Shown here: piece by piece, positions 18,027 through 34,927 of the stretch
Position numbering within the stretch: the stretch's first letter is position 1
Layout of the letters: the number at the start of each line of letters is the position of its first letter
Source: Elusimicrobiota bacterium
GTDB taxonomy: Bacteria; Elusimicrobiota; Elusimicrobia; UBA1565
Length of the DNA stretch: 53,729 bases
NCBI GenBank assembly: GCA_016218495.1
Contig: JACRDU010000051.1
Coordinates: 1-53,729 of the forward strand
Direction: 5' to 3'
The notes under the pieces: generated by a model
Database searches by the model: none
Seen by the model: the letters and a program-made list of their open reading frames with translations, nothing else
What the model was told of the DNA's origin: nothing
Program-made: the position numbers and the translations under genes

Positions 18027-18056
18027 TTGACGGCGCTTGGAATGCCCGGCTACACT
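18027..18056 (+). promoter_or_regulatory. Sigma-70-type leaderless promoter for the second kinase
   Basis: TTGACG (18027-18032), 18-bp spacer, TACACT (18051-18056), 6 nt before the ATG at 18063. Confidence 0.6.
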
Positions 18057-18062
18057 GGCTCC

Positions 18063-20425
<2,363 letters not shown>

Positions 20426-20429
<4 letters not shown>

Positions 20430-21100
20430 ACGGGCGCGTGCTGGTAGCGGCCGACAGCCCGGAGAAGCTCAGGGCCCTGCTCGCCGCCCTCGGGGCCGCG
20501 GCGGAGGGCGCCTCGTCCGCAGCGGGTTTGGACGAGGCGTGGCGGATATTCAAGGAGGACCCTCCGTCCGTGGTCATCCTGGACTGGGACCTGGCCGACA
20601 AGCGGGCGGGCGCCTTCTGCACGAAGCTGCGCGGCCATCCGACCGGGCGGGGCACCGCCCTGCTGGTCTTCGTGGAGGCCGGGGACCCGGCCCAGACCGA
20701 GAAGGGCTTCGCGGCCAAGGCCGACGCCTGCCTGCCCCGGCCGCTCGAGCCCCGGCGGCTCAAGCTCTGGGTGGATGCCGTCTCGCGCCGCGCTCGGCGC
20801 GGCGAGGAGGCCGGCGGCGTGCTGCGGGCGGAAGGCCTGGTCATCGATCCGCGCCGGCGCACCGTGGCCTGCGGGGACTTCCTCGCCGGCGACCTGACCA
20901 AGAAGGAGTTCGACCTGCTCTGCGCGCTCGTGCGCCGCCGGCCGGGAGTGCTCTCCAAGGAGTTCATCATGGGCACGGTCTGGCGCACCGTGATGCGCGA
21001 CAACACGGTGGAGGTGCACGTGAAGAACCTGCGCGCGAAGCTGGGCCCGGCGGCGGGACGCATCGTCACCGTGCCGAAGGCCGGCTATAGGTTCGAATAG
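20426..21100 (+). CDS. OmpR-family response regulator with degenerate receiver
   Basis: 224 aa: receiver-like domain (1-120) plus winged-helix DNA-binding domain (about 130-224, FLAGDLTKKEFDLLCAL...TVEVHVKNLRAKLG). Of the phosphorylation site, Asp53 (VILDWDL) remains, but the acidic pair is reduced to Asp10, the conserved Thr is lost and the switch Lys is Arg105 (LPRPLE). It may be phosphorylation-independent or controlled by the upstream kinase. ATGA overlap with the kinase. No histidine kinase gene is nearby. Confidence 0.8.
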
Positions 21101-21101
21101 C

Positions 21102-21779
21102 ATGCTGCGCGGACGCATCCTCATCGCCGAAGACGACCCCGCGGTCAGCGCCGTCGTCTCGGAGCTCTTGACCGAGAAGGGCTACGAGGCCGTCGCCACC
21201 GAGACGGTGGCCGAGGCCAAGCGCCTGCTCGACGCGCACCACTTCGACCTGGCCGTCGTCGACCTGGGGCTCAAGGACGGCTCCGGGCACGAGGTGACGC
21301 GCCACATCCGGGCCTCCGCGGGCTCGGCGGCGATGCCCGTCATCATGCTGACCGGCGCCAAGGCCGTCGAGGACATGGAGCGCAGCCTGGAGGCGGGCGT
21401 CGATTACTTCCTCTCCAAGCCGATGGCGGCCGCCGAGCTGATGCTCTGGGTGCGCTCGCTCCTGCGCCGGGTGCACGACGATTGGGACCGCGGCACCACC
21501 ATCGGCGTCCCCGGCCTGCGGCTCAACCCGGACATCCGCACCGTCTGGGTGGACCGCAAGGTGGTGCGCGGCCTGACCGCCAAGGAGTTCGACGTCCTCC
21601 TCGAGCTGGCGCGGGCCCATCCCAAGGGGCTCTCCCAGCGCCAGCTCTACCAGCGCGTCTGGGGGCGGGCCGAGGAGAGCAACACCCTCGTCGTCCATGT
21701 GCAGAGCCTGCGCCGCAAGCTGGGCCTCAAGGGCGGCGCCCACATCGTCACCAGCGACGACGGCTACCGGCTGGAGTAG
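21102..21779 (+). CDS. OmpR-family response regulator
   Basis: 225 aa with a complete receiver: Glu10-Asp11-Asp12, Asp54 phosphoacceptor, Thr84, Lys106 (FLSKPM), then a winged-helix domain (LTAKEFDVLLELARAHPKG...LVVHVQSLRRKLG) that would bind promoter DNA. It starts one base after the stop of the degenerate regulator and is its paralogue. Its cognate histidine kinase is not encoded here; the operon instead contains a Ser/Thr kinase. Confidence 0.85.
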   Translation: MLRGRILIAEDDPAVSAVVSELLTEKGYEAVATETVAEAKRLLDAHHFDLAVVDLGLKDGSGHEVTRHIRASAGSAAMPVIMLTGAKAVEDMERSLEAGVDYFLSKPMAAAELMLWVRSLLRRVHDDWDRGTTIGVPGLRLNPDIRTVWVDRKVVRGLTAKEFDVLLELARAHPKGLSQRQLYQRVWGRAEESNTLVVHVQSLRRKLGLKGGAHIVTSDDGYRLE

Positions 21780-21927: not shown

Positions 21928-22653
21928 ATGAAAAAATTCTTGATGCTGGCCTTCGTGATGGCCGCCGGGGCGGCCGGGGCGGCCGCGCAGGACGGCGCGA
22001 TGAGCGCGGACCGGCGCACGGCCTGCCAGCGGCTGGCCGGCCATGCCGTCAGCTGCTGCGTGCATGTGACGGGAGACGGCATCGGCTGCCAGCGCTATGG
22101 GCGCAGCGGAGAGGACGCCTCGCGGCGCGCGGTGCAGAGCATCGTGGGAAAGATCGTGGACATGATCGCCGTCGGTGGAACGGCCCTCTCGCGCATGACG
22201 GTCGCCCAGCTCATCCCCCAGCTGGTCACCGACAGGCTGGACCTGACCGGCCAAGACAGGCTGGCTTCGGGGCAGATCGCGCGCTGCATCCAGGGGGAGT
22301 TCGTGCCGGACCGCTGGAGCCGGATGGGGAGCCCTTTTGACAACACCCCGGCGCGGGCGGCGGCCTTCATCCGCAGCGAGCGCGAGGCCTGCCAGAGGGA
22401 AAACGTCGAAGCGGCCATCGCCGAGGTGCGCCGGCCCCGGCCGGCCGGGGAATATTGCGGGCGGGTCGTCACCGAGCAGCCTCCGATGCAGCTGACCGGC
22501 TATCAGCCGCCGGCGATGTCCTATGTCCAGCCCGTCCACCCCTGCTCGAACGGGGCTCCCAACTGCTGCCCCGGCCGCGGGTTCTATTCCGGCAGCGCCT
22601 ACTGCAATGCCGGAACGCCCAGCCCGCTATGCCTGCCGAACCGGGCTCCGTGA
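21928..22653 (+). CDS. Secreted Cys-containing protein, unknown function
   Basis: 241 aa with a clear signal peptide (MKKFLMLAFVMAAGAAGAAA, cleaved before QDG). At least ten Cys occur after cleavage, clustered near the start (ACQRLAGHAVSCCVHV) and in the Pro-rich tail (NCCPGRGF, YCNAG, PLCLP), suggesting extracytoplasmic disulfides. Start fixed by GGAGGGAGG. First of three genes (21928, 22661, 23055) probably co-transcribed from promoter copy d. No family recognised. Confidence 0.7.
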   Translation: MKKFLMLAFVMAAGAAGAAAQDGAMSADRRTACQRLAGHAVSCCVHVTGDGIGCQRYGRSGEDASRRAVQSIVGKIVDMIAVGGTALSRMTVAQLIPQLVTDRLDLTGQDRLASGQIARCIQGEFVPDRWSRMGSPFDNTPARAAAFIRSEREACQRENVEAAIAEVRRPRPAGEYCGRVVTEQPPMQLTGYQPPAMSYVQPVHPCSNGAPNCCPGRGFYSGSAYCNAGTPSPLCLPNRAP

Positions 22654-22660
22654 GGGTGCC

Positions 22661-23026
22661 ATGAGAGCGGCAGCGCTTCTGCTTCTGGCCGGCATCCTGG
22701 CGGGCCCGGCCGTCCCGGGCCGCGCGGCGGCCCTGGAGAGCGCGGCGGTCTGGGACGCGGTGGTCGACCTCTACCGTCCCGGCGGGGCGCTGAACGCCAG
22801 GCTCGACGCGGACATCGACGGCAAGGCCGCGCCGGACTTCCTCGCCAAGCTCCTGAGCGACCCCGACCTGACCCCCATGGGGGCAGAAGCGGGGGCGCGC
22901 TGGTTCCGCGAGCGCCTCAAGGTCGTGCGCGGTCCCAAGCCGGTAAAGCGCGAGGGGCTGGTGGGCTTGGTGGTTGAGAAGAGCGTGGTGCTGGAGTGGA
23001 AGAGCGTCCCGACCGGCGTGCGCTGA
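22661..23026 (+). CDS. Small secreted protein with YRPGG...GARWFR module
   Basis: 121 aa with signal peptide (1-23). The body shares a module with the next protein: (L/M)YRPGG-x-L ... DLD/DID ... (N/T)PMG-x2-AGARWFR-x-RL. The start lies 7 bases after the previous stop. No family recognised; its close relation to the following gene suggests duplication and perhaps assembly into one complex. Confidence 0.65.
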   Translation: MRAAALLLLAGILAGPAVPGRAAALESAAVWDAVVDLYRPGGALNARLDADIDGKAAPDFLAKLLSDPDLTPMGAEAGARWFRERLKVVRGPKPVKREGLVGLVVEKSVVLEWKSVPTGVR

Positions 23027-23054
23027 CCCGGTCGGCGGCGGCAAGGAGGATGCG

Positions 23055-23813
23055 ATGAACGCCATGAAGACGATGGTCCTGGTCGGAACGCTCGGGTTGG
23101 GAGCCGGTCCCGCCCAGGCAAATGACGCCCAGCTCCAGACCGCGCTCGGTCAGGTCCAGGCGGTCCGCGACCCCAGGGACCTGCGCCAGGTCATGGGGCG
23201 CTTCAACGCGCTGGTCTCCCAGGCGACGCAGAGCGAGAGCGAGGCCATGGCGCGCGCGAATTGGGAGTGGCGGTATGCCCGTCCCCGCCTCGGCGACCCG
23301 CGGGAGTCGGCGCGGGCCGCGCTGAGCGACGCCGAGAGGACGGCGCGCTGGCGCCTGAGCTCGGCCATAGGCGACCGCCTGCTCGACATGTACCGGCCGG
23401 GCGGTCCGCTCAGCCATCAGCTCACCGCCGACCTCGATATGATGACGCCCAACGGCGCGGGGAGGGTTTACTGGTACACCGGCCACATCGTCTACCAATA
23501 CCTCAACGACCGCTCGGTCAATCCCATGGGCTTCGACGCCGGCGCGCGCTGGTTCCGAGACCGGCTCACGGAGCTGCGCGCCGCGGCTCCCCGGCAGAGC
23601 CCGAGCATCGGCGCCGCGCCCAGCCAGGCTTCGCCGTCGGGCTTGTTCTGGCTGGGGCCGCCGAACATCAACATGGACAACCCTGACCGGTCCACGGGGG
23701 TGGGCTGGTGGCTCCTCAATAACGTCGGCGGGGCGATGGTGCCGGGGAACATCCAGGCCGGGCCGGTCGGCGGAAACCTCTCGGCCCGGCAGATGCCGTG
23801 GCCGCCGCGCTGA
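23055..23813 (+). CDS. Secreted protein with YRPGG...GARWFR module
   Basis: 252 aa with signal peptide (about 1-22, ending AQA). Charged helical N-terminal half, then the module shared with the preceding gene (MYRPGGPL, NPMGFDAGARWFRDRL) and a Gly-rich tail ending in a GPVGG motif that recurs in the protein at 24005-24709. AAGGAGG lies ahead of the ATG at 23055; an ATG at 23064 is possible. Function unknown. Confidence 0.65.
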   Translation: MNAMKTMVLVGTLGLGAGPAQANDAQLQTALGQVQAVRDPRDLRQVMGRFNALVSQATQSESEAMARANWEWRYARPRLGDPRESARAALSDAERTARWRLSSAIGDRLLDMYRPGGPLSHQLTADLDMMTPNGAGRVYWYTGHIVYQYLNDRSVNPMGFDAGARWFRDRLTELRAAAPRQSPSIGAAPSQASPSGLFWLGPPNINMDNPDRSTGVGWWLLNNVGGAMVPGNIQAGPVGGNLSARQMPWPPR

Positions 23814-23931
23814 GCCATGGAGCCGAGTCCGACGGTGTTTGCCTTTGTTGCGGACACCGAAGTCTGTATTGGCGATGAGGCCGCCGCTGGGCTCCCCGAA
23901 AAGATTAAGGAAACACATGAGTTTTCCTCCA

Positions 23932-23976
23932 TTCAGGAAGATTTTATTCGTCGCGCCTGCGCCTTTGCCGCATCCT
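23932..23976 (+). promoter_or_regulatory. Bipartite promoter motif, copy e
   Basis: ATTCAG-GAAG-ATTTTATT, exactly 22 nt, then CATCCT (23971-23976), 28 nt before the ATG at 24005. The remaining intergenic DNA from 23814 is less GC-rich and shows no other feature. Confidence 0.6.
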
Positions 23977-24004
23977 TGAGGCATGACGCAAGGGGGGGAC
24001 TAAA

Positions 24005-24709
24005 ATGACCAACAAGACTCTGGTGGCGGCGGTGTTCTTCGGCTTCGCGGGAGAAGCGAAGGCCGATTACCAGCACGATGCGGCGGACCGTGAAATCCTG
24101 CAGAACTTCCAGGGGGGGATCCTGGCCACCCCTCGGAGGGACCTCTATAACCAGCTGCCGATGCGTGTAACCATGGCGGCCCAGCATGTCGAGCGCAACG
24201 CCTGCTGGGGGCCGTATAGGGCGATGCAGGGCGCGCAGGAGAACGCCCACGCCCAACGCGACGCCATCGGGGACGGCGCCCAGCGGGCGGCGGTGCGGGC
24301 CCGCGAGGACTACGACGCCTGCATGAACTCCTTCCGGGGCCAGGTGTCGCAGATGGTGGCGGGGGCGATGCTGGCCTCGGTCTCGGCGGGGGCCTATATC
24401 GGACAGATGCCCGGCGGGGCCCAGGCCCGCGAGCGCGTCGACCTGCTCTGCAACAACGCCCAGCTCATCCCCGACTCCGGGGCCTGCCGGCGCTGGTTCC
24501 AGCACCAGTTCGAGCTGCTCGACCGCCAGCAGAACCCCAGCGGCTACATCGGCGCGCCGCGCACCATGCCGATCGGCGTCGCGCTGTTCGGGTCGCAGAA
24601 CGCCGGCAACGGCACCGGCCTGGCTTGGCAGATGCTGGGGGCCTTCAGCAACGGGAACACGGTGTCCGGCCCCGTCGGCGGCGGGCCGGTGGCCACCGGG
24701 AGCCGTTAG
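24005..24709 (+). CDS. Secreted protein related to 23055-23813, unknown function
   Basis: 234 aa with a short signal peptide (cleavage near EAKA). A charged helical region carries Cys pairs (NACWG, DACMN, LLCNN, GACRRWF); ACRRWFQHQFELL resembles the GARWFRDRL helix of the preceding proteins, and the Gly-rich tail contains SGPVGGGPV. Read from its own bipartite promoter (copy e) and followed by a strong hairpin. No family recognised. Confidence 0.65.
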   Translation: MTNKTLVAAVFFGFAGEAKADYQHDAADREILQNFQGGILATPRRDLYNQLPMRVTMAAQHVERNACWGPYRAMQGAQENAHAQRDAIGDGAQRAAVRAREDYDACMNSFRGQVSQMVAGAMLASVSAGAYIGQMPGGAQARERVDLLCNNAQLIPDSGACRRWFQHQFELLDRQQNPSGYIGAPRTMPIGVALFGSQNAGNGTGLAWQMLGAFSNGNTVSGPVGGGPVATGSR

Positions 24710-24848: not shown

Positions 24849-25454
24849 ATGCCCGCCCTTACAAAGACCCCCGTCCGCGAGACGAACCGCGACGCCATCC
24901 TCGACGCGGCGAACCGCCTGTTCTGCCAGAAGGGCTTCCACGGCACCTCGACGCGCGAGGTGGCCGAGGCGGCCGGGGTGTCGCTGGGGAACATCTACAA
25001 CCACTTCGACGGCAAGGAAGAGGTCTTCGCGGCGCTCCTGGAGCGCTACGAGGCCGAGTACTTCGCCCCGGGCCAACCGCTGGGGAAGGCCTTCCTCGAG
25101 GCGCCGTTCCCGGCCAACATCGAGGCTATCGGGAAGGCTTCGGGCGAGACCATCGCCAAATTCTCCGACTACATCCTCCTCATATATGTGGACGTGGTGG
25201 AGTTCAAGGGCCGCCACATCGCCCGCCTGTTCCGGGAGATGCGGCAGCGCTACCAGAAGCATGTGGAGAAGGCCGGGCGCGGGAACATCGCCCCCGACGT
25301 CGACCCGGTGGCGGCCATGATGATGGTGACGCTGTCCTTCTTCAACTACTACACCGTCGAAAAGCTCTTCGGCGTCAAGAACCACTTCGGCATGGGCGAC
25401 GCCGAGACGGTGAAGACCTTCGCGCGCATCTTCCGCAAGGGCGTGGAGCGCTGA
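24849..25454 (+). CDS. TetR-family transcriptional repressor
   Basis: 201 aa. The N-terminal helix-turn-helix is TSTREVAEAAGVSLGNIYNHF (about 36-56), followed by an all-helical ligand domain. GGAG seven bases ahead of the ATG. It heads an operon of acyl-CoA and polyester genes and has a palindromic operator over its own start, so it most likely represses the whole operon until an acyl-CoA or related ligand binds. The ligand is inferred only from context. Confidence 0.85.
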   Translation: MPALTKTPVRETNRDAILDAANRLFCQKGFHGTSTREVAEAAGVSLGNIYNHFDGKEEVFAALLERYEAEYFAPGQPLGKAFLEAPFPANIEAIGKASGETIAKFSDYILLIYVDVVEFKGRHIARLFREMRQRYQKHVEKAGRGNIAPDVDPVAAMMMVTLSFFNYYTVEKLFGVKNHFGMGDAETVKTFARIFRKGVER

Positions 25455-26275
25455 TGCCCCTGGCTCGGCTGCCCTTCGGGCACCGCATCGCCTACGACGA
25501 CTGCGGGACGGGCGAGCCCGTGCTCTTCATCGCCGGCCTGGGACGCGACCGCCGCATGTGGGACGCCCAGGCGCCGCTGGCCGAACGCTTCCGGATGATC
25601 AGCTTCGACAATCGCGGCGTGGGCGGCAGCTCCCGGCCGGCCGGCCCCTACTCCGCCGCGCAGCTGGCGGCCGACGCCGCCGGGCTGCTGAGCGAGCTGG
25701 GCATCGCCCGGGCCCATGTGGTCGGGGCGTCGCTCGGCGGCCTCATCGCCCAGGAGCTGGCGCTCTCCGACCCCGCCCGGGTGGCCAGCCTCTCCTTGCT
25801 GTGCACGCATCCCGGCGTCCCGCTGGCCGTGCCGATGAGCCGCGAAGTGCTCGCCGCCATCGTGCCCGACGCGGCCTGCGACCCCTATGAGCGGCTCCTG
25901 GGCGCGATGCGCCTGGCCTTCGGCAGCGCGTATTGGGCCGTCAACGCGGCCGACCTGGCCGGCGCGGCGCGCGCCCGGCTGCCCAGCCTGCCCTCGCCGG
26001 AGGCCTGGTGGGCCCAGGCGGCGGCGGGTGCCTCGTTCTCCTGGGCGGGACGGAGCCTGCGCGTGCCGGCGCTCATCCTGACCGGGGACGAGGACCGCAT
26101 CGTCCCCCCGCTCAACTCGGGGCTGCTGGCGGAGCTCATCGAGGGCTCCGCCGCGCACATCATCCCGGGCGGCGGGCACTATTTCTTCGCGGAGCAGCCG
26201 GAGCTCGTGAACCGGCTGCTGGGCGAGTTCTTGGAATCAGCATCAATAGAGAGGAAGGAGGAAGCATATGCCTAA
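25454..26275 (+). CDS. Alpha/beta hydrolase
   Basis: 273 aa. Nucleophile elbow GASLGG (Ser near residue 92), Asp in TGDEDRIVPP and His in GGGHYFF complete the triad; oxyanion motif near AGLGRDRRMW. TGATG overlap with the TetR stop. Candidate roles are a thioesterase, an oligomer esterase or a lipase in the polyester pathway; the substrate cannot be read from sequence. Confidence 0.8.
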   Translation: MPLARLPFGHRIAYDDCGTGEPVLFIAGLGRDRRMWDAQAPLAERFRMISFDNRGVGGSSRPAGPYSAAQLAADAAGLLSELGIARAHVVGASLGGLIAQELALSDPARVASLSLLCTHPGVPLAVPMSREVLAAIVPDAACDPYERLLGAMRLAFGSAYWAVNAADLAGAARARLPSLPSPEAWWAQAAAGASFSWAGRSLRVPALILTGDEDRIVPPLNSGLLAELIEGSAAHIIPGGGHYFFAEQPELVNRLLGEFLESASIERKEEAYA

Positions 26276-26639
26276 GTCACCCGTGATGGATCCGGAGACC
26301 GCGTTCGAGGCGGCCAAGAAGGCGATGGACATCGCCCTCGAGGCGCAGGAGAAGGCGGAGGAGACGTACAAGCAGGCGATGGAAGACCTCTACGACGCCG
26401 CGCAGAGCACCCTGCGACAGTCCCGTTCGGCCGCCGTGACGATGCAGGGCGCGATGCCCTGGGCCGTCGCCGTCAAGCCGCTGCAGGACCAGATCATGGA
26501 CCTGCAGGAGAAGTCGCTCGAGAACGCCCGCACGGCGACGAAGACCGCCTTCGACAACTACCGCCGCAACGTGGCGGAGCCGATGCGCAAGCTCTCCCGG
26601 GAGTCGGCGTCCAAGCTGTCCCCGAAGGCCCGCGCATGA
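26268..26639 (+). CDS. Phasin-like small helical protein
   Basis: 123 aa, almost entirely amphipathic helix with heptad character and no Cys. The size, Ala/Lys/Glu-rich composition and position ahead of PhaC-like genes fit a phasin that coats polyhydroxyalkanoate granules. GGAGGAAGC precedes the ATG, which overlaps the hydrolase stop by 8 bases. Assignment rests on composition and context. Confidence 0.55.
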   Translation: MPKSPVMDPETAFEAAKKAMDIALEAQEKAEETYKQAMEDLYDAAQSTLRQSRSAAVTMQGAMPWAVAVKPLQDQIMDLQEKSLENARTATKTAFDNYRRNVAEPMRKLSRESASKLSPKARA

Positions 26640-26851
26640 AGGCCGACGCGGCCCAGGTCTGGACGAAGGCCTGGGACGCGTATCTGGAGACCCTCGGCCT
26701 GACGGTCGAGGGCTCGCTGACCAGCCCCGAGTTCCTGCGCCTGCAGAGGCGCACGCTGGACATGCTGTGCGGACACCGGGACCTGTGGCTCAAGGCAATG
26801 ATGGAAACGGCGCCGCAGGGCGGCGGAAGGAAGCGTGCCCGGCGCCGCTGA
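26636..26851 (+). CDS. Small protein of a PHA-type operon
   Basis: 71 aa, helical, with a basic C-terminus (GGGRKRARRR). ATGA overlap with the phasin-like gene, and it runs 17 bases into the downstream synthase gene. It is far too short for PhaE or PhaR but occupies the slot of a synthase partner subunit. The basic tail could contact nucleic acid or phospholipid. Function unknown. Confidence 0.55.
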   Translation: MKADAAQVWTKAWDAYLETLGLTVEGSLTSPEFLRLQRRTLDMLCGHRDLWLKAMMETAPQGGGRKRARRR

Positions 26852-27833
26852 GCAGTTCCGGGTCAGGGTCGGCCGGACCCCGTCGCGCCTGGTGCGGCGC
26901 GACGGGGCCGCGTCCCTGCGCTTCTATCCCGCGCGGGGTCGGACGAGGAAGCCGCCGGTCTTCCTCGTTTACGCGATGGTCAACCGGCCCTTCATCCTGG
27001 ACCTGCTGCCGGGGCTGAGCGTCGTCGAGCGCCTGACGGCGGCGGGACGGCCCGTCTACCTGCTCGACTGGGGAGAACCCCGCGAGGAGGACGCCGGACG
27101 CGGGCTCGACGACTATATCCTGGGGGTCCTCGACCGTTCCATCGAGGCCGCGCGCAGGCGTTCCAAGGTCGGCTCCCTCCATCTGGCCGGCTATTGCGAA
27201 GGAGGGGTCTTCTCCCTCCTTTATACGGCGCTCAGGCCGGAGAAGGTCCGCACTTTGGCCCTGCTGGCCACCCCGGTGGACTACAAGCGCATGGGCACCC
27301 TCTCGGTCTGGGCGCGCCGCGCCAATTTCGACGCCGGGCGCCTGGCCCGCTCCTACGGGAACATCCCCGGCTCCTTCCTGCACGCGGCCTTCGAAGTGCT
27401 CAAGCCCTTCACCAGCCTGCGCGCCGAGGGGGAGTTCCTCTCCAAGATGTTGGACGGCGCTCTGAGCAAGGAGCAGCAGGAACACTTCCTGGCGCTGGAG
27501 CGCTGGAAGAAGGAGCATGTGGCCCACCCGGGCAAGGCGTTCGCCGAAGTCGTGCGGGGCCTGTTCCAGGAGAACCGCCTGCTGAAGAACGCCTTCAAGG
27601 TGGGGGGCAAGGCGGCCGACCTGCGCCGCGTGAAGTGCCCCTTGTTCGTCGCGGTGGGGGAGAAGGACCACCTCGTCCCGCCGGCGGCGGCCCTGCCCGT
27701 GACGCGCCTCGCCGCCAGCCGCGACGCGCGCGTCGAGCGCGTCCCGGTGGGGCATATCGGGCTTTCGGTCAGCGGCCGGGCCCACAAGGAGCTCTGGCCG
27801 CGTTATCTGGACTGGATAGCGGAGCGGGACTGA
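26835..27833 (+). CDS. PhaC-like polyhydroxyalkanoate synthase 1
   Basis: 332 aa PhaC-fold protein of class III-like size. The lipase-like box holds the catalytic Cys (GYCEGG, Cys121); Asp in GEKDHLVPP and His in VGHIGLSV complete the triad. It would polymerise hydroxyacyl-CoA into polyester on granules in the cytoplasm. GTG start after GGAAGGAAGC. A second PhaC-like protein follows three genes later, sharing LVRRDG, LVYA-x-(V/I)NRP, DLLPG and LLDWG-x-P motifs. Whether both are active or work as a heteromer is open. Confidence 0.8.
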   Translation: MPGAAEQFRVRVGRTPSRLVRRDGAASLRFYPARGRTRKPPVFLVYAMVNRPFILDLLPGLSVVERLTAAGRPVYLLDWGEPREEDAGRGLDDYILGVLDRSIEAARRRSKVGSLHLAGYCEGGVFSLLYTALRPEKVRTLALLATPVDYKRMGTLSVWARRANFDAGRLARSYGNIPGSFLHAAFEVLKPFTSLRAEGEFLSKMLDGALSKEQQEHFLALERWKKEHVAHPGKAFAEVVRGLFQENRLLKNAFKVGGKAADLRRVKCPLFVAVGEKDHLVPPAAALPVTRLAASRDARVERVPVGHIGLSVSGRAHKELWPRYLDWIAERD

Positions 27834-27834
27834 C

Positions 27835-29262
27835 ATGGACCCCCTGGAGCTCCAGGCGCTGTCGCGCCCCGACAAGACGGCCCTGACCGAGGACGGCGGG
27901 CCGTCCTATACCTATGCGGAGCTGGCGCGCGAGAGCCGGCGCCTGAGGGTCTTCCTGCAGGACACGGGCCTCAAGCCCGGAGACCGCGTCGCCCTGCTGG
28001 CCCATAACGCCGCCGAGAGCGTGCTGCTCTTCTTCGCTTGCCGCGCCGGCGGGTTCACCTTGGCGCCCCTCAACTGGCGTCTGTCCGAGCCCGAGCTCAA
28101 GGCCATCCTCGAGGACTTCCGCCCCTCCATCCTGGTTCGCGGCCCGGGCTGCGGCGAGGCGGCGCTGCCCGGCCGGTCCATGACGCCGGCGGACCTGGCC
28201 GCGGGGCGCGCGCGGAGCGCCGACCCCGGCCCTTCGCGCGCCGTCCCCGCCGCCGAGTCCGTGCCCCTGGTCCTCTACACCTCGGGGACCACCGGGGTCC
28301 CCAAGGGCGTGATGCTCTCCAACCGGATGATCCATGCCAACGCCGTCAACACCTTGCTCGGCTGGGGGTTGGGCCCGGAGGACTGCACCGTCAGCTGCGC
28401 GCCGCTGTTCCATACCGGCGGCTGGAACGTGATGACCCTTCCCCTGCTCCTGGGCGGCGGCTCGGTGACGCTGAGCGCGAAGTTCGACGCGGCCCGCACG
28501 GCCGAGCTGATGCGCCGGGGACGCGCCACGGCGCTCTTCGGGGTGCCGACCATGCTGCAGAGCCTGATGGAGCAGGACCTGGGAGGACTCGCCCCGAAGT
28601 TCCTCATCTCCGGCGGGGCGCCCTGCCCGGCGCCCCTGCTCGAATCCTTCCTGGGGCGGGGGCTGGTCTTCAAGCAGGGCTTCGGGATGACCGAGGTGGG
28701 GCCGAACTGCTTCCTCTTCCCCGACCGGGACATCCGCCGCAAGCGCGGCTCGGTGGGCCTGCCCATGCCGGGCACCGAGATGCGCCTCACCGGCGAGGAC
28801 GGCCGCGTGGGCGACGCCGGCGAGCTCTGGGTCCGCGGCCCGCACGCCTTCTCGGGCTACCTGGGCCGGCCGGAGGAGACCTCCAAAGCCTTGGTCGACG
28901 GCTGGGTGCGCACGGGCGACCTGGCCCAGCGCGACGCCGAGGGCTACTACTACATCCTCGGCCGCAAGAAGGAGATGTACATCTCGGGCGGGGAGAACGT
29001 CTACCCCGTCGAGGTGGAGGCCGTCCTCCAGGCCCACCCCGGCGTCCTCGAGGCGGCGGTGGTGGGCGTCCCTCACGAGCGCTGGGGCGAGGCGGGCCGG
29101 GCCTTCGTGGTGGCGCGGCCCGGCGTAAGCCTGAGCCCCGAGGCGCTGGCATCCTTCCTCGAAGGGCGCCTGGCCCGATTCAAGCAGCCCAAGGACATCC
29201 GCATCCGGACCTCCCTGCCCAAGAACGCCATGGGCAAGGTCCTCAAAGGAGCCCTGCAATGA
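27835..29262 (+). CDS. Acyl-CoA synthetase (AMP-forming)
   Basis: 475 aa ANL-superfamily ligase. AMP-binding signature YTSGTTGVPKG (about 145-155), FGMTE motif, GWVRTGD, and the C-terminal PKNAMGK catalytic lysine. It activates a carboxylic acid to acyl-CoA, here presumably a fatty or hydroxy acid feeding the polyester synthases. Starts one base after the PhaC-like gene; its stop overlaps the next start (ATGA). Shorter than typical medium-chain ligases (about 520-560 aa), mainly through compact loops. Confidence 0.85.
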   Translation: MDPLELQALSRPDKTALTEDGGPSYTYAELARESRRLRVFLQDTGLKPGDRVALLAHNAAESVLLFFACRAGGFTLAPLNWRLSEPELKAILEDFRPSILVRGPGCGEAALPGRSMTPADLAAGRARSADPGPSRAVPAAESVPLVLYTSGTTGVPKGVMLSNRMIHANAVNTLLGWGLGPEDCTVSCAPLFHTGGWNVMTLPLLLGGGSVTLSAKFDAARTAELMRRGRATALFGVPTMLQSLMEQDLGGLAPKFLISGGAPCPAPLLESFLGRGLVFKQGFGMTEVGPNCFLFPDRDIRRKRGSVGLPMPGTEMRLTGEDGRVGDAGELWVRGPHAFSGYLGRPEETSKALVDGWVRTGDLAQRDAEGYYYILGRKKEMYISGGENVYPVEVEAVLQAHPGVLEAAVVGVPHERWGEAGRAFVVARPGVSLSPEALASFLEGRLARFKQPKDIRIRTSLPKNAMGKVLKGALQ

Positions 29263-29993
29263 GAGAGAAGACCGTGCTGGTGACGGGCGGCGCGCGCGGC
29301 ATCGGCGCGGCGGTCTGCGACGCGTTCCTGGCGCGCGGCGCGCGGACGGCGTTCACGGACATCGACGAAGAGGTGGGCAAGGCCCGCGAGGTGGAGCTCG
29401 GCGGGCGCGAGAAGGCCCTCTTCATCAAGGCCGACGCCTCGGACAAGGGCGACGCCGAGCGGATGGTCGCGGAGGTCGTCTCGGCCTGGGGCCGCCTGGA
29501 CGTCCTGGTCAACAACGCCGGCATCACGCGCGACGCGCTGTGCGCGCGCATGGAGGAGGGGGACTTCGATTCCGTGGTGCGAATCCACCTCAAGGGCGCC
29601 TGGCTGTGCGCGAAGGCGGCCCACAAGCAGATGCGCGCGCAGGGCGGCGGGCGCATCATCAACACCTCCTCGGTCTCCGCGCTGGGCAACGTCGGCCAGG
29701 CCAACTACGCGGCGGCCAAGGCCGGAGTCATCGGCCTGACCAAGACCCTGGCCCTGGAGTGGGCGCGCTACAACATCCTCGTCAACGCCGTGATGCCCGG
29801 CTTCATCGACACGCGCATGACGGTGCCGCTGCCGGAGAAGGTGAAGGCCATGCTCATCGAGAAGATCCCCCTGGGCCGCTTCGGGAAGCCCGAGGAGCTG
29901 GCCCGCCTGCACCTGTTCCTGGCCGGAGAAGGCGGCGACTACATCACGGGGCAGGTGCTCTGCGCCGACGGCGGCCTGACGGCGGGGTTCTGA
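29259..29993 (+). CDS. SDR: acetoacetyl-CoA / 3-oxoacyl reductase (PhaB/FabG-like)
   Basis: 244 aa short-chain dehydrogenase. TGGARGIG cofactor loop, NNAGITRD, catalytic Ser (NTSSVSAL), Tyr-x3-Lys (YAAAK) and a C-terminal DGGLTAGF. The ITRD sequence and operon position favour a PhaB-type role making (R)-3-hydroxyacyl-CoA for PhaC; a general FabG role is possible. ATGA and TGATG overlaps on both sides show tight coupling. Confidence 0.85.
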   Translation: MREKTVLVTGGARGIGAAVCDAFLARGARTAFTDIDEEVGKAREVELGGREKALFIKADASDKGDAERMVAEVVSAWGRLDVLVNNAGITRDALCARMEEGDFDSVVRIHLKGAWLCAKAAHKQMRAQGGGRIINTSSVSALGNVGQANYAAAKAGVIGLTKTLALEWARYNILVNAVMPGFIDTRMTVPLPEKVKAMLIEKIPLGRFGKPEELARLHLFLAGEGGDYITGQVLCADGGLTAGF

Positions 29994-31084
29994 TGCCCCT
30001 CTCGCCCCTGCTCGAGCCGCTGGTGCGCTACTCGAAGGCCGCCGAGGCCCTGGCCGAGGGTCCGAAGACGGTCCGTCTCGGCCGCACGCCGAAGAAGCTC
30101 GTGCGCCGCGACGGGCGCACGTCGCTCTACCGCTACGGCGTCCCCGCGCGCCGGGCGCGCGGCGCCGCTCCCGTGCTGCTCGTCTACGCCCTCATCAACA
30201 GGCCGACCATCATGGACCTGCTGCCGGGGCGCAGCATCGTCGAAGTCCTGCGCGCGGCGGGCCTCGACGTGTGGCTGCTAGATTGGGGCGTCCCCGGCCC
30301 CGAGGCGGCGGGCGAAGGGCTCGACGAGCATGTGATGGGCTACCTGCACCGCGCCGTGGAGGCGGTCCGCAAGGGAGCGAAGGCGCCGAAGGCCTCCCTC
30401 TTCGGCTACTGCATGGGCGGAACCCTGTCCGTGATGTATGCCGCGCTCGAGCCCGCCCGCGTGGCGCGCCTCCTGGCGGCCGTGGCGCCCATCCGGGGAC
30501 GCCAGAGCGAGGGCTTCATCCATTTCGCCTCCGACCCCGCGCTCTTCAACCCCGGGCTGATGACCCTGCAGGGCAATGTGGCGCCCGAGGCGCTCAACGC
30601 CGGGTTCATGATGCTGCGCCCGGTGGAGAACATGCTCGGCAAGTATGTGCGCTACTTCGAGAAGGCGGGCGAGCCAGGCTTCGACGAGCTGTTCTTCGCC
30701 ATGGAGCGCTGGGTCTCGGAGGGGCAGCCCCTGCCGGGCCGGCTCTACCGGGAGTTCGTGCGCGGCGTCTATCAGGAAGACCTGCTCGTCACGACGGGCG
30801 TGCCGGTGGGTGCCCGCAGGGCGCGCGCCGCCGACGTGCGCTGTCCCGTCGCCGTCGTCTCCAGCGCCCAGGACCACCTCGTCCCGCCTTCTTCGACACA
30901 GGCCTTGCTCGACCTGGCGGCCTCGCGCGAGAAGAAGCGCTTCGACTTCCCCGGCGGCCATGTCGGCCTGGCCATCTCCCCGAAGGCGCTGGCCACGGTC
31001 TGGAAGGACGCGGCGGCCTGGCTGGGAGGCTCCGGAAAGCCCAGGTCTAAAGGCCTAAAGCCGAAGATGCGGCGGGGGGTATAA
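29993..31084 (+). CDS. PhaC-like polyhydroxyalkanoate synthase 2
   Basis: 363 aa PhaC-like. Catalytic Cys140 in FGYCMGG, Asp in SAQDHLVPP, His in GGHVGLAI. It retains the N-terminal helical stretch missing from synthase 1 and resembles class III PhaC more closely. TGATG overlap with the reductase gene; its stop (TAA) lies inside the -10 hexamer of the following gene. No beta-ketothiolase (phaA) is in the operon. Confidence 0.8.
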   Translation: MPLSPLLEPLVRYSKAAEALAEGPKTVRLGRTPKKLVRRDGRTSLYRYGVPARRARGAAPVLLVYALINRPTIMDLLPGRSIVEVLRAAGLDVWLLDWGVPGPEAAGEGLDEHVMGYLHRAVEAVRKGAKAPKASLFGYCMGGTLSVMYAALEPARVARLLAAVAPIRGRQSEGFIHFASDPALFNPGLMTLQGNVAPEALNAGFMMLRPVENMLGKYVRYFEKAGEPGFDELFFAMERWVSEGQPLPGRLYREFVRGVYQEDLLVTTGVPVGARRARAADVRCPVAVVSSAQDHLVPPSSTQALLDLAASREKKRFDFPGGHVGLAISPKALATVWKDAAAWLGGSGKPRSKGLKPKMRRGV

Positions 31085-31085
31085 T
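31080..31085 (+). promoter_or_regulatory. -10 hexamer overlapping the end of the PHA operon
   Basis: TATAAT, 7 nt before the ATG at 31093. It overlaps an earlier in-frame ATG at 31084, which therefore cannot be used from this promoter. Confidence 0.55.
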
Positions 31086-31092
31086 GTCCGCG

Positions 31093-32454
31093 ATGCGCCG
31101 AGCCCTGCTGCTGGTGGTCCTGGCCGTCCCCGCTTCGGCCCAGTTCCGGACCGCGCCGGTCCTGCCCGCTTCCGTCGTGAGGACCGCCCCGCTCTTCGCT
31201 CCCACCCTGCCGGCCTCCGGGCTGCCGTCCCTGTCGCCGTCCTTCTCGCCCTTCGCGGCCTCCCTGTCGGGCTATGCGCAGGGCCTGTCCGGAGCCGCGC
31301 TGGCCCCCTCGGTCCAGCCGGCCCGCGCCGGCGCCGCGGCCTTCTTCGACGGGGCCAAGGCGCGCCCGGCGGCCTCCGGCGTCTCGGCCAAGGTCGCCCC
31401 GTCGGGCTCCACCTCGGGCCGCTTCGAATCGCGCGACGGCGCGGCCATCGGCTATTCCCTGCGCCGCCCCGCGCGCGCGCAGGGGCCGGCCCGGGTCTTC
31501 GTCGGCGGGATGACCCTGCCGGAGAGCTTCCTCACCTACCTGGACTCCGCGCGCTCCGAGCGCGCCGACTACACCTTGAACCTGCGCGGCCTGCCCGGCA
31601 CGCGCTGGTCGGCGACGGGGAACCTCTACGACGCCGACGCCTACGACATGGCGCGGATGATCGTCACGGCGGCGCAGTCCTCCGGCGGCCGCGTCGAGCT
31701 GGCCCTGCACTCCTACGGGACCTTGGTCTTCCAGCGCATGCTGCAGCTGCGCGGCGACCCCGAGGTGGCGCGCGCCCTGGCCGCCCTGCGCGGCGGCCGC
31801 GTCACGATGTTCGCTCCGGCGACGCATTACGGCGACTCCGAGACGGTGGCCGGCCCCGAATACGCGGACATGGCGCGCGCCATCCGCACCTTCATGTCCT
31901 GGCTGGACGCGGGCGACGCCTACATCGAGCAGTGGAAGTCGCTGGCCCGGCTCAACCCGCTCATGCTCCCTCAGGCCCTGGCCTACGAGGCCTGGTGGGT
32001 GCCGCAGCGCACGGCCGGCCTGGCGCTGTGGTCCAAGCCCGCCTCCGACCTGCTGCTCCAGCACCTGGGAGAGCCTTGGGCCCCGGAGCTCGAGCCGGCG
32101 CGGCGCGCCCTGCTCGAGGAGTCGCGCGCCTATGCGCGCGACGCCGGCTGGCAGGAGGCCGCCCTGCGCCGCGCCAACGACACCTCGAGGCTGGACTTCA
32201 AGGCGGAGGACGCCGCCGCCCTGCGCGCCGCGGGCATCCGCCTCGACCTGGTCCTCTCGAACCGCGACCAGCTCATCCCCTGGGCCAGCGCGCGCCTGCT
32301 GCCCGCCTTCTTCGGAATCGACCTCCCCGGCTCCGCCCCGTCGGCGGGCTCGGTCTACACCGACGAGACGGGCCTGGTGCGGGTGCTGGTGGCCGACGGC
32401 GACCACTATCTGCCGCTCAAGGACCCCGCCGCGGCCGGGAGCATCCTGCGGTGA
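31093..32454 (+). CDS. Secreted alpha/beta hydrolase-like protein
   Basis: 453 aa. Signal peptide (1-16, ending PASAQ) and about 85 residues of Ala/Pro/Ser-rich linker, then a hydrolase-like domain. The elbow is LHSYG (Ser near 208), an Asp lies in NRDQLIPW and a His in DGDHYLPL. The elbow lacks the first Gly, so activity is uncertain. The start is chosen because the -10 lies over the alternative ATG. The stop overlaps the next gene by GTGA. Substrate unknown; it follows the polyester operon but has its own promoter. Confidence 0.65.
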   Translation: MRRALLLVVLAVPASAQFRTAPVLPASVVRTAPLFAPTLPASGLPSLSPSFSPFAASLSGYAQGLSGAALAPSVQPARAGAAAFFDGAKARPAASGVSAKVAPSGSTSGRFESRDGAAIGYSLRRPARAQGPARVFVGGMTLPESFLTYLDSARSERADYTLNLRGLPGTRWSATGNLYDADAYDMARMIVTAAQSSGGRVELALHSYGTLVFQRMLQLRGDPEVARALAALRGGRVTMFAPATHYGDSETVAGPEYADMARAIRTFMSWLDAGDAYIEQWKSLARLNPLMLPQALAYEAWWVPQRTAGLALWSKPASDLLLQHLGEPWAPELEPARRALLEESRAYARDAGWQEAALRRANDTSRLDFKAEDAAALRAAGIRLDLVLSNRDQLIPWASARLLPAFFGIDLPGSAPSAGSVYTDETGLVRVLVADGDHYLPLKDPAAAGSILR

Positions 32455-33572
32455 GGCAGTTCTCGGCCCTGGGCGTGCGCCTCGACCTCCCGCCGCGGGC
32501 GCCGGAGCTCAACGAGGAGCGCCCGGACCTGTCCACCCTGTCCTCGCGCCCCGCGGCCATCCACCCCGAGGCGCTGGGCATCGCCCCGCCCATGGCCGCA
32601 TGGACGCCCTTGGCCGACGTCGTCCCGGGGCGCTTCCTGGCCGGCGGCCTCCCCGCCGACCCGGGGGCGCGCTGGACGCTGAAGGTCCCCAAGGCCTGGA
32701 ACGGCCGGCTGGTCTGCGCGGCGGCGCCGGGGCTGGCGCCGTGCGAGGCGTACGACCTCTACTGGGGGGACTTCCTCCTGTCGAAGGGCTATGCGTTCGC
32801 CGTGACCGACAAGGCGACCCGGATGCTGCGCGGCACGGATGCGGTCTACATCCCCCTCGATTCCGACGGCCATCCGTCGCGCTGGCTGGGCCGCCTGGAA
32901 TCCCTGGTCCGGCACGCCCGGGGCGAGTTGGTGACGCACGCCGGCCGCGCGCCCGAGAAGACCTATGTGGTCGGCGTCTCCAACGGCGGCTACCTCGCGC
33001 GCCGCTTCCTCGAGGAGCGGCCCGACCTCGTCGACGGGGGAGTCGACGTGTCGGGCCCCTGCTGGCACGCCGACGGCGGAGGCTTCCTGACCCAGCTGCC
33101 CGCCGCCCTGCGCGCCGCCGAGAAGGCCTTCGAGCCGGAGGCGCTCAAGAAGGCCGGCCTGCTCCTGCCCGACGGCTGGGGCGGGCTCGCGGCGTTCTAT
33201 CGCGATTTCCTGTGGGGGCCGACGCTGGCCTATTTCACCGCCCACCTCGACCCCGAGTATAACGGCGACGGGGCCGCCTACGACTACGCGGCCCGTCCCG
33301 CCTCCGTGCACCGCGCGGTCCGCGCTCTGGCCTGCACGGGCAAGCTGGGCAAACCCCTCTACTCCATCGCGGGGGAGGCCGACCTGCTGACGGCCCCGTC
33401 CGTCCATCTGGACCCCTACATCGCCCTCGTGCATGCGGCGGGCCGTTCCGACATCCATCATGTGGTCCGGGTCCCCGCGGGCTCCCACAACGACGCCGAC
33501 CGCCACATCGAGCCGGGCGTCGCCCTCCTGATGCCCTTCGCGCACCGGGCTTTCGTCGCCCTGACCGCCTAG
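32451..33572 (+). CDS. Alpha/beta hydrolase, tannase/3HB-oligomer hydrolase-like
   Basis: 373 aa without an evident signal peptide. GVSNGGYLARR (Ser near 177) resembles the elbow of tannase/feruloyl esterase and 3-hydroxybutyrate oligomer hydrolases; an Asp lies in AGEADLLTAP and a His in PAGSHNDADRH. GTG start inside the preceding stop. A role in cleaving polyester oligomers would fit the neighbouring PHA operon but is speculative. Confidence 0.6.
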   Translation: MRQFSALGVRLDLPPRAPELNEERPDLSTLSSRPAAIHPEALGIAPPMAAWTPLADVVPGRFLAGGLPADPGARWTLKVPKAWNGRLVCAAAPGLAPCEAYDLYWGDFLLSKGYAFAVTDKATRMLRGTDAVYIPLDSDGHPSRWLGRLESLVRHARGELVTHAGRAPEKTYVVGVSNGGYLARRFLEERPDLVDGGVDVSGPCWHADGGGFLTQLPAALRAAEKAFEPEALKKAGLLLPDGWGGLAAFYRDFLWGPTLAYFTAHLDPEYNGDGAAYDYAARPASVHRAVRALACTGKLGKPLYSIAGEADLLTAPSVHLDPYIALVHAAGRSDIHHVVRVPAGSHNDADRHIEPGVALLMPFAHRAFVALTA

Positions 33573-34550: not shown

Positions 34551-34754
34551 ATGAGCTGCAGATTCACCCTTGATTATTGGCGGGACGGAGAGTGGTTCGT
34601 TGGTCGTCTCCGCGAGGTCCCTGGCGTATTCAGCCAAGCCGAGTCGCTCTCCGCGCTCGAAGACAACATAAGGGATGCCTACAGGCTCGTAATGGCCGAC
34701 CAAAGGCCGGTGCGCCGATCGTCCAAGTCCAAGAAAGTTCTCTTGACGGCGTGA
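34551..34754 (+). CDS. hicB: HicB-type antitoxin
   Basis: 67 aa with the HicB/UPF0150 partial RNase H-like fold (DGEWFVGRLREVPGVFSQAESLSALEDNIRDA). It lacks a C-terminal DNA-binding domain, so autoregulation would need another factor. The order antitoxin then toxin, the GTGA overlap and the leaderless promoter make a compact module. Lower GC than its neighbours, which suggests transfer. Confidence 0.8.
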   Translation: MSCRFTLDYWRDGEWFVGRLREVPGVFSQAESLSALEDNIRDAYRLVMADQRPVRRSSKSKKVLLTA

Positions 34755-34927
34755 AGAGACGCGACCTCATCCGAGAACTCGTCGCGGCCGGCTGCTACCT
34801 CAAACGGCATGGCAGCCGTCATGACCTCTACGCCAACCCGGGAACCGGCCGCATCGCCCCCGTCCCCCGCCACAACGACATCGCCGAGACCCTAGCCGCC
34901 GTTATCCGAAAACAGCTGGCGGTGTAG
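34751..34927 (+). CDS. hicA: HicA-type mRNA interferase toxin
   Basis: 58 aa dsRBD-fold toxin. The conserved segment KRHGSRHDLYANP carries the catalytic His, and VPRHNDIAETL matches the HicA C-terminus. GTG start overlapping the hicB stop. It would cleave mRNA when HicB is lost. Confidence 0.8.
   Translation: MKRRDLIRELVAAGCYLKRHGSRHDLYANPGTGRIAPVPRHNDIAETLAAVIRKQLAV

Follow-up and report, generated by a model that had tools for sequence, protein, structure and literature searches.

A class III-like polyhydroxyalkanoate operon with two sister synthase genes and a minimal PhaE-type subunit in an Elusimicrobiota genome

The DNA analysed here, called the window below, is a stretch of 53,729 nt from an Elusimicrobiota bacterium (contig JACRDU010000051.1, assembly GCA_016218495.1), and it carries an operon with two genes for polyhydroxyalkanoate (PHA) synthases, PhaC1 and PhaC2, together with an acyl-CoA ligase gene. 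Such a gene set raises the question of what the operon would produce, and which part each of the two synthases should have in it. We regard it, with a probability of roughly 0.6, as a self-contained unit for PHA synthesis and turnover, in which PhaC1 together with a minimal PhaE-type protein of 71 amino acids would be the main synthase, PhaC2 a second synthase or a partner of PhaC1, and the ligase part of a recycling route.

Nine genes on the plus strand, at 24849–32454, constitute the operon (Table 1; all coordinates are forward-strand positions in the window), and they encode, in this order, a TetR-type regulator, a hydrolase, a phasin-like protein, the 71-residue protein, PhaC1, the ligase, a reductase, PhaC2 and a ninth protein. 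All neighbours overlap by 1 to 17 bases or sit 1 base apart. The regulator and hydrolase genes are joined by TGATG, the hydrolase and phasin-like genes overlap by 8 nt, and the phasin-like and 71-residue protein genes share ATGA. PhaC1 starts with GTG in a 17-nt overlap with the gene before it and is followed by a 1-nt gap to the ligase; the last three junctions are ATGA (ligase and reductase), TGATG (reductase and PhaC2) and TAATG (PhaC2 and the ninth gene). The first-pass annotation had listed the first eight as coupled genes of a PHA-type operon. All eight were found in place and coupled, and the operon continues past 31084, with the ninth gene beginning on the stop codon of PhaC2. The PHA-type assignment holds as well, the PhaE-type subunit, phasin-like protein, PhaB-type reductase and class III-like synthases all being present together, and the ligase does occupy the place where a thiolase might be expected.

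Table 1. Genes of the operon, with the main evidence for each. G089 and G295 are two genomes of another genus in the same family.
Feature	Position	Strand	Evidence
TetR-family regulator	24849–25454	+	PF00440 E 2e-18; orthologs 66–67% in G089, G295
Alpha/beta hydrolase, serine nucleophile GASLGG	25454–26275	+	Abhydrolase_1 E 9e-28; orthologs 54–60%
Phasin-like helical protein, 123 aa	26268–26639	+	Phasin_2 E 0.03 (weak, below cut-off); position kept in four genomes
Putative minimal PhaE/PhaR-type subunit, 71 aa, without LPTR and coiled-coil end	26636–26851	+	bridging profile E 8e-5
PhaC1, class III-like PHA synthase, 332 aa	26835–27833	+	TIGR01836 E 5.5e-77, 259 bits; triad C121-D278-H307
Acyl-CoA ligase (AMP-binding), 475 aa	27835–29262	+	PF00501 E 6e-75
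PhaB/FabG-type short-chain reductase, 244 aa	29259–29993	+	FabG E 4e-82, AcAcCoA_reduct E 2e-65, both below cut-off
PhaC2, class III-like PHA synthase paralog, 363 aa	29993–31084	+	TIGR01836 E 1.5e-78, 264 bits; triad C140-D294-H323
Ninth gene, apparent signal peptide, alpha/beta-hydrolase-like Ser-Asp-His pattern	31084–32454	+	orthologs 57% and 41%

Family and origin of the two synthases

The best family of both synthases is the class III model TIGR01836, with scores under its curated cut-off. With the class II model TIGR01839 (cut-off 855) they score just 55 and 31 bits, and the two proteins are not of the ~60 kDa size; the class I model TIGR01838 gives 116 and 95 bits (cut-off 623), and both proteins are without the N-terminal domain. 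The lipase box is GYCEGG in PhaC1 and GYCMGG in PhaC2, and when the window PhaCs and their relatives are combined in a profile, it aligns to PhaC enzymes of solved structure at the Cys, the Asp-His and the His, so that the earlier statement of a Cys-Asp-His triad kept in both is confirmed. The AlphaFold models have a mean predicted local distance difference test score of 94.7 (PhaC1) and 93.3 (PhaC2), the first 15 PDB matches of each are all PhaC, and for both models PhaC structures rank ahead of any other alpha/beta hydrolase. The first-pass annotation would have given way if one synthase were phylogenetically a hydrolase; neither is one in the trees, and family scores and structural matches likewise rule this out. 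By triad, fold and purifying selection both proteins are thus predicted to be intact class III-type PHA synthases. The triad alone is no proof of activity, since the haloarchaeal (Haloferax) PhaC2 has an intact Cys-Asp-His triad and yet makes no PHA (PMC2939530).

PhaC1 and PhaC2 are 39–41% identical. Relatives were collected by a pattern scan that favours a catalytic Cys followed by Met or Glu, with the best 80 kept, and in three maximum-likelihood trees the PhaC1 and PhaC2 proteins of the family are sister clades (support 97/94, 85/94 and 93/95), placed among class III-like PhaCs and apart from the class I outgroup rows, indicating a duplication within this lineage. The earlier description of two divergent synthases is therefore right in that they are two distinct proteins; a separate origin is ruled out by the best trees, which place them as sisters.

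The two copies have changed to a different extent. A comparison with 73 other class III-like PhaCs gives 44 near-invariant positions (at least 90% conserved), and PhaC1 orthologs depart from three of these, PhaC2 orthologs from nine. The PhaC2 losses include the D of a PxDF motif (R168 in the window), a Trp (A179) and an Asn (D263). The motif aligns with the loop after beta7 (the beta7-CAP loop) of the class I structure, which lines the pocket there (PMC5509742), and by this alignment several of the losses would lie in the acyl-pocket region. In both copies a near-invariant Asp of alphaC is replaced by Glu (E227 and E243); the corresponding Asp395 of the Chromobacterium PhaC forms a salt bridge to Lys221 (PMC5509742). 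The change common to both copies would fit with common descent.

The small subunit and the supply genes

For the 71-residue protein neither NCBIfam nor, with the limit relaxed to E 10, Pfam gave a match. In other lineages, short proteins encoded next to a lone PhaC gene show weak matches to PhaE or PhaR, and a bridging hidden Markov model (HMM) was built from 12 such short PhaE-like subunits, leaving out the Elusimicrobia family, and run against 7918 open reading frames (ORFs). Two full-length orthologs of the window protein were matched at E 1e-6 and 2e-4, and the window protein itself scored 21.4 bits, where the highest of 2000 shuffles reached 6.7 (E-value in Table 1), while the next ORF of the window reached only E 1.5. 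The match spans the two helices before the LPTR motif; the LPTR and the coiled-coil part are missing. In a second iteration, which drew in long PhaE proteins, the match fell to E 0.011–0.14, and the link therefore rests on the short PhaE-like proteins. The protein, left unnamed before although its presence and coupling were correctly described, is now read as a putative minimal subunit of the PhaE/PhaR type in which the usual coiled-coil end is missing. A PhaE-like stretch and a PhaC are found in one open frame, possibly a natural fusion, in a Pirellulaceae genome (L028, 7566–8975).

Among NCBIfam models the hydrolase matches a PcaD-like family best (3e-37), followed by PHA_depoly_arom (3e-20), all far under cut-off. 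Against the PhaZ families it scores 73 bits with PHA_depoly_arom (cut-off 251) and 50 bits with i_nPHAscl (cut-off 300), and none was passed. A PhaZ label is thus not supported, and the protein is a candidate intracellular oligomer hydrolase or thioesterase. The absence of a thiolase, noted earlier, is true of the operon alone: four thiolases above the family cut-off are encoded elsewhere in the genome, which rules out a cell without a thiolase route. The nearest other short-chain dehydrogenase/reductase (SDR) of the genome, a FabG-like protein on another contig, is 42% identical to the operon reductase, and relatives of MaoC and enoyl-CoA hydratase are present also, indicating that ketoacyl- and hydroxyacyl-CoA could be supplied from outside the operon. 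The ninth gene matched no Pfam family; its orthologs sit at the same place, behind PhaC2 in two other genomes, with LHSY, D and GDHYLP conserved.

Occurrence of the gene set and comparison with known systems

Class III PhaC has previously been counted in Elusimicrobia, in three genomes (PMC8312272). Our scan of the phylum, covering 295 genomes, gave a relative at E 1e-10 in only five of them, and both PhaC genes are present in four of the eight genomes of the family and neither in the other four. A second species of the same genus (G273, where the contig begins inside the phasin gene) and a genome of another genus (G089) have the gene order of the window operon. The second genome of the latter genus (G295) has a contig that stops at the start of PhaC2 and, from TetR up to that point, shows the same order, except that the gene for the 71-residue protein is shortened. 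At this locus (L128, 3713–4160) LELLCGHRD is still present in the short protein, and a stretch is deleted inside the phasin-like protein; both may be real changes or an assembly fault. Between the two species of the genus, amino acid identity and the ratio of nonsynonymous to synonymous substitution rates (dN/dS) are 59% and 0.40 for the 71-residue protein, 75% and 0.26 for PhaC1, 79% and 0.28 for the ligase, 85% and 0.20 for the SDR, and 74% and 0.25 for PhaC2. The close values of PhaC1 and PhaC2 indicate similar purifying selection on both synthases, and the kept gene order together with the dN/dS of 0.20–0.40 for these five genes excludes a chance arrangement.

Outside the family, a ligase match beside PhaC was found at six of the scanned loci, all in Myxococcota. 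Three of these genomes were checked and have two or three PhaCs each, two of them in one region, and in the class of one such genome 69 of 144 genomes have a PhaC match, many with two on one contig. Four Polyangia genomes (G326, G342, G369 and G376) share with the window a phasin-like protein, a minimal PhaE of about 71–108 amino acids, likewise without the LPTR end, and tandem sister PhaCs with a ligase of the same subfamily (44–45%) and a reductase behind them. In each of them the best genome-wide relative of the window ligase is the one at the paired-PhaC locus, with 359–370 bits compared to 207–217 for the runner-up. These loci differ in being split by an oppositely oriented regulator of the PHB type, in having no adjacent TetR identified, and in PhaCs that the best tree places as a sister pair of their own. 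Support for this pair is 98/96 and 98/93 in two trees, and with each pair made up of sisters, separate duplications are favoured; an ancestral pairing, in which PhaC1 would go with one Polyangia copy (PhaC-b) and PhaC2 with the other, is 8–15 log units less likely and is not rejected by the approximately unbiased (AU) test (p 0.16–0.22). The set is rare, with one close relative of the second Polyangia PhaC in a draw of 377 Myxococcota genomes, and a second Myxococcota group has a ligase of a different subfamily and a PhaE of the full short type. In all four genomes the second PhaC of the Polyangia pairs (L165–L168) reads DYITP in place of DHLVP, so that a Tyr and not a His follows the catalytic Asp.

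With class III PhaC-PhaE systems, including haloarchaeal PhaEC, the operon has in common a PhaC of ~330–365 amino acids with a GxCxGG box and a Cys-Asp-His triad, TIGR01836 as the best family, and a PhaE-type gene just upstream of PhaC. It differs by the two PhaC paralogs, by the Glu in place of the alphaC Asp and by the short subunit; a class III PhaE is a 20–40 kDa protein with a conserved C-terminal region, and the 71-residue protein has neither. Because of this and of the PhaC scores under cut-off, the operon was not filed as plain class III. Class IV PhaC-PhaR of Bacillus also has a small second subunit, and some of the bridging proteins match PhaR (TIGR02132), whereas PhaR is 22 kDa and the window protein is without a direct PhaR match. 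Two synthases, a hydrolase, a TetR-type regulator, a phasin and a ligase to reactivate monomers recall the class II cluster phaC1-Z-C2-D of Pseudomonas, where the PHA cycle comprises two synthases, the PhaZ depolymerase, PhaD and an acyl-CoA synthetase reactivating released monomers (PMC8764540). The window operon would have a candidate for each step of such a cycle; it differs by its short class III-like synthases, by the PhaE-type subunit, and by having ligase and reductase inside the operon, and the likeness is convergent and not that of one family. No description of paired class III PhaCs with a ligase was found in the open-access literature. It is well supported that the locus is a class III-like PHA operon in which PhaC is duplicated and PhaE minimal, and that its partner set recurs in another phylum.

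Proposed function of the operon and its surroundings

As a unit for synthesis and turnover, the whole operon should be under the TetR regulator, and PhaC1, the 71-residue subunit and the phasin-like protein would make up the likely main synthase, of class III type. The SDR would convert 3-ketoacyl-CoA, supplied by thiolases elsewhere in the genome, to (R)-3-hydroxyacyl-CoA, and the serine hydrolase and the ligase may form a recycling arm by which hydroxyacids from the polymer or from uptake are turned into CoA thioesters. PhaC2, born by duplication of the same synthase, is most likely a second synthase of other specificity or a partner of PhaC1. Polymer production, and the roles of the hydrolase, ligase, reductase and PhaC2 in it, we infer. 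Several points weigh against this view: the TIGR01836 scores of both PhaCs are under the curated cut-off of 365 bits, the hydrolase is closer to PcaD-type than to PHA depolymerase models, the small subunit is far below the known PhaE size and only about 45 amino acids long in one genome, the operon is absent from half of the family genomes, one of them of the same genus and 100% complete, and the genomes are those of uncultured bacteria.

The position of PhaC2 is where the alternatives diverge. The first-pass annotation suggested that external or salvaged acids are polymerised, perhaps by a heteromeric synthase; both ideas are kept here as possibilities. It is quite conceivable, if short of probable, that it works as an independent synthase with a different substrate range, to which the ligase feeds acids from outside or from fatty-acid breakdown; its triad is intact, its dN/dS is low, the changed positions include the Trp, the Asn and the PxDF motif, the last aligned with the pocket-lining loop (PMC5509742), and a class II locus of Burkholderiales likewise pairs a ligase and a MaoC protein with a synthase. 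The same residue losses could mean lost activity. A PhaC2 that has lost polymerising activity and persists as a structural or regulatory remnant, or works as a hydrolase or transferase, would agree with the nine lost residues and has a precedent in the Haloferax protein cited above; it is considered unlikely given the intact triad and lipase box, a dN/dS as low as that of PhaC1, first 15 structural matches that are all PhaC, and the retention of the gene in all four operons. Some doubtful, though not negligible, weight is given to an obligate heteromeric synthase, in which PhaC1 and PhaC2 would dimerize via the CAP region, which mediates PhaC dimers (PMC5509742), with the minimal PhaE bound to one half. 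The joint presence of both genes in every family genome having either, the asymmetry of the copies, and the Polyangia loci, where sister PhaCs again stand with a minimal PhaE lacking the coiled-coil end, speak for it; on the other side, tandem paralogs may merely differ in specificity, two synthases in one cluster are already known in Pseudomonas (PMC8764540), and the AU test leaves room for a single ancestral pair kept alike by gene conversion. Very improbable, finally, is an operon whose product is a different acyl compound, the PhaC-like proteins working as acyltransferases or thioesterases: the hydrolase and ligase families are broad, but class III-like synthases combined with a PhaE-type subunit, a phasin-like protein and a PhaB-type reductase constitute a PHA set.

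Regarded as a self-contained PHA unit, the operon gives a concrete storage pathway for an uncultured phylum in which class III PhaC was only counted before (PMC8312272). To our knowledge, the need of class III and class IV synthases for a second subunit is still poorly explained. A natural subunit of 71 amino acids, consisting mainly of the helix pair before LPTR and standing beside paired synthases, would be a candidate for the minimal functional core. If the two PhaCs work together, they would be a heteromeric PHA synthase with a possible use in copolymer making. A speculative and rather unlikely extension is a new synthase type, a single heteromeric enzyme of two diverged PhaC paralogs and a minimal PhaE that would draw its substrate from a dedicated acyl-CoA ligase, and that would have evolved separately in Elusimicrobiota and Myxococcota by PhaC duplication together with loss of the PhaE coiled-coil end.

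The base composition shows no sign of a recent foreign origin, with a GC content of 70.6% in the operon and 70.7% in the window. Just upstream of the operon, 22523–24709 encodes small, apparently secreted proteins with a common motif around AGARWFR or CRRWFQ; those scanned gave no Pfam match, and the arrangement resembles a tandem paralog family. Further upstream, at 18027–21779, a tetratricopeptide repeat protein with a serine/threonine kinase domain is followed by two response-regulator-like ORFs that overlap or lie close. Two genes behind PhaC2 there is a second ORF of alpha/beta-hydrolase type (32355–33572), weakly tannase-like (E 7e-4, below cut-off). A HicBA-like toxin-antitoxin pair is located at 34551–34927, where a short UPF0150/HicB-like ORF precedes a HicA match (E 2e-9).

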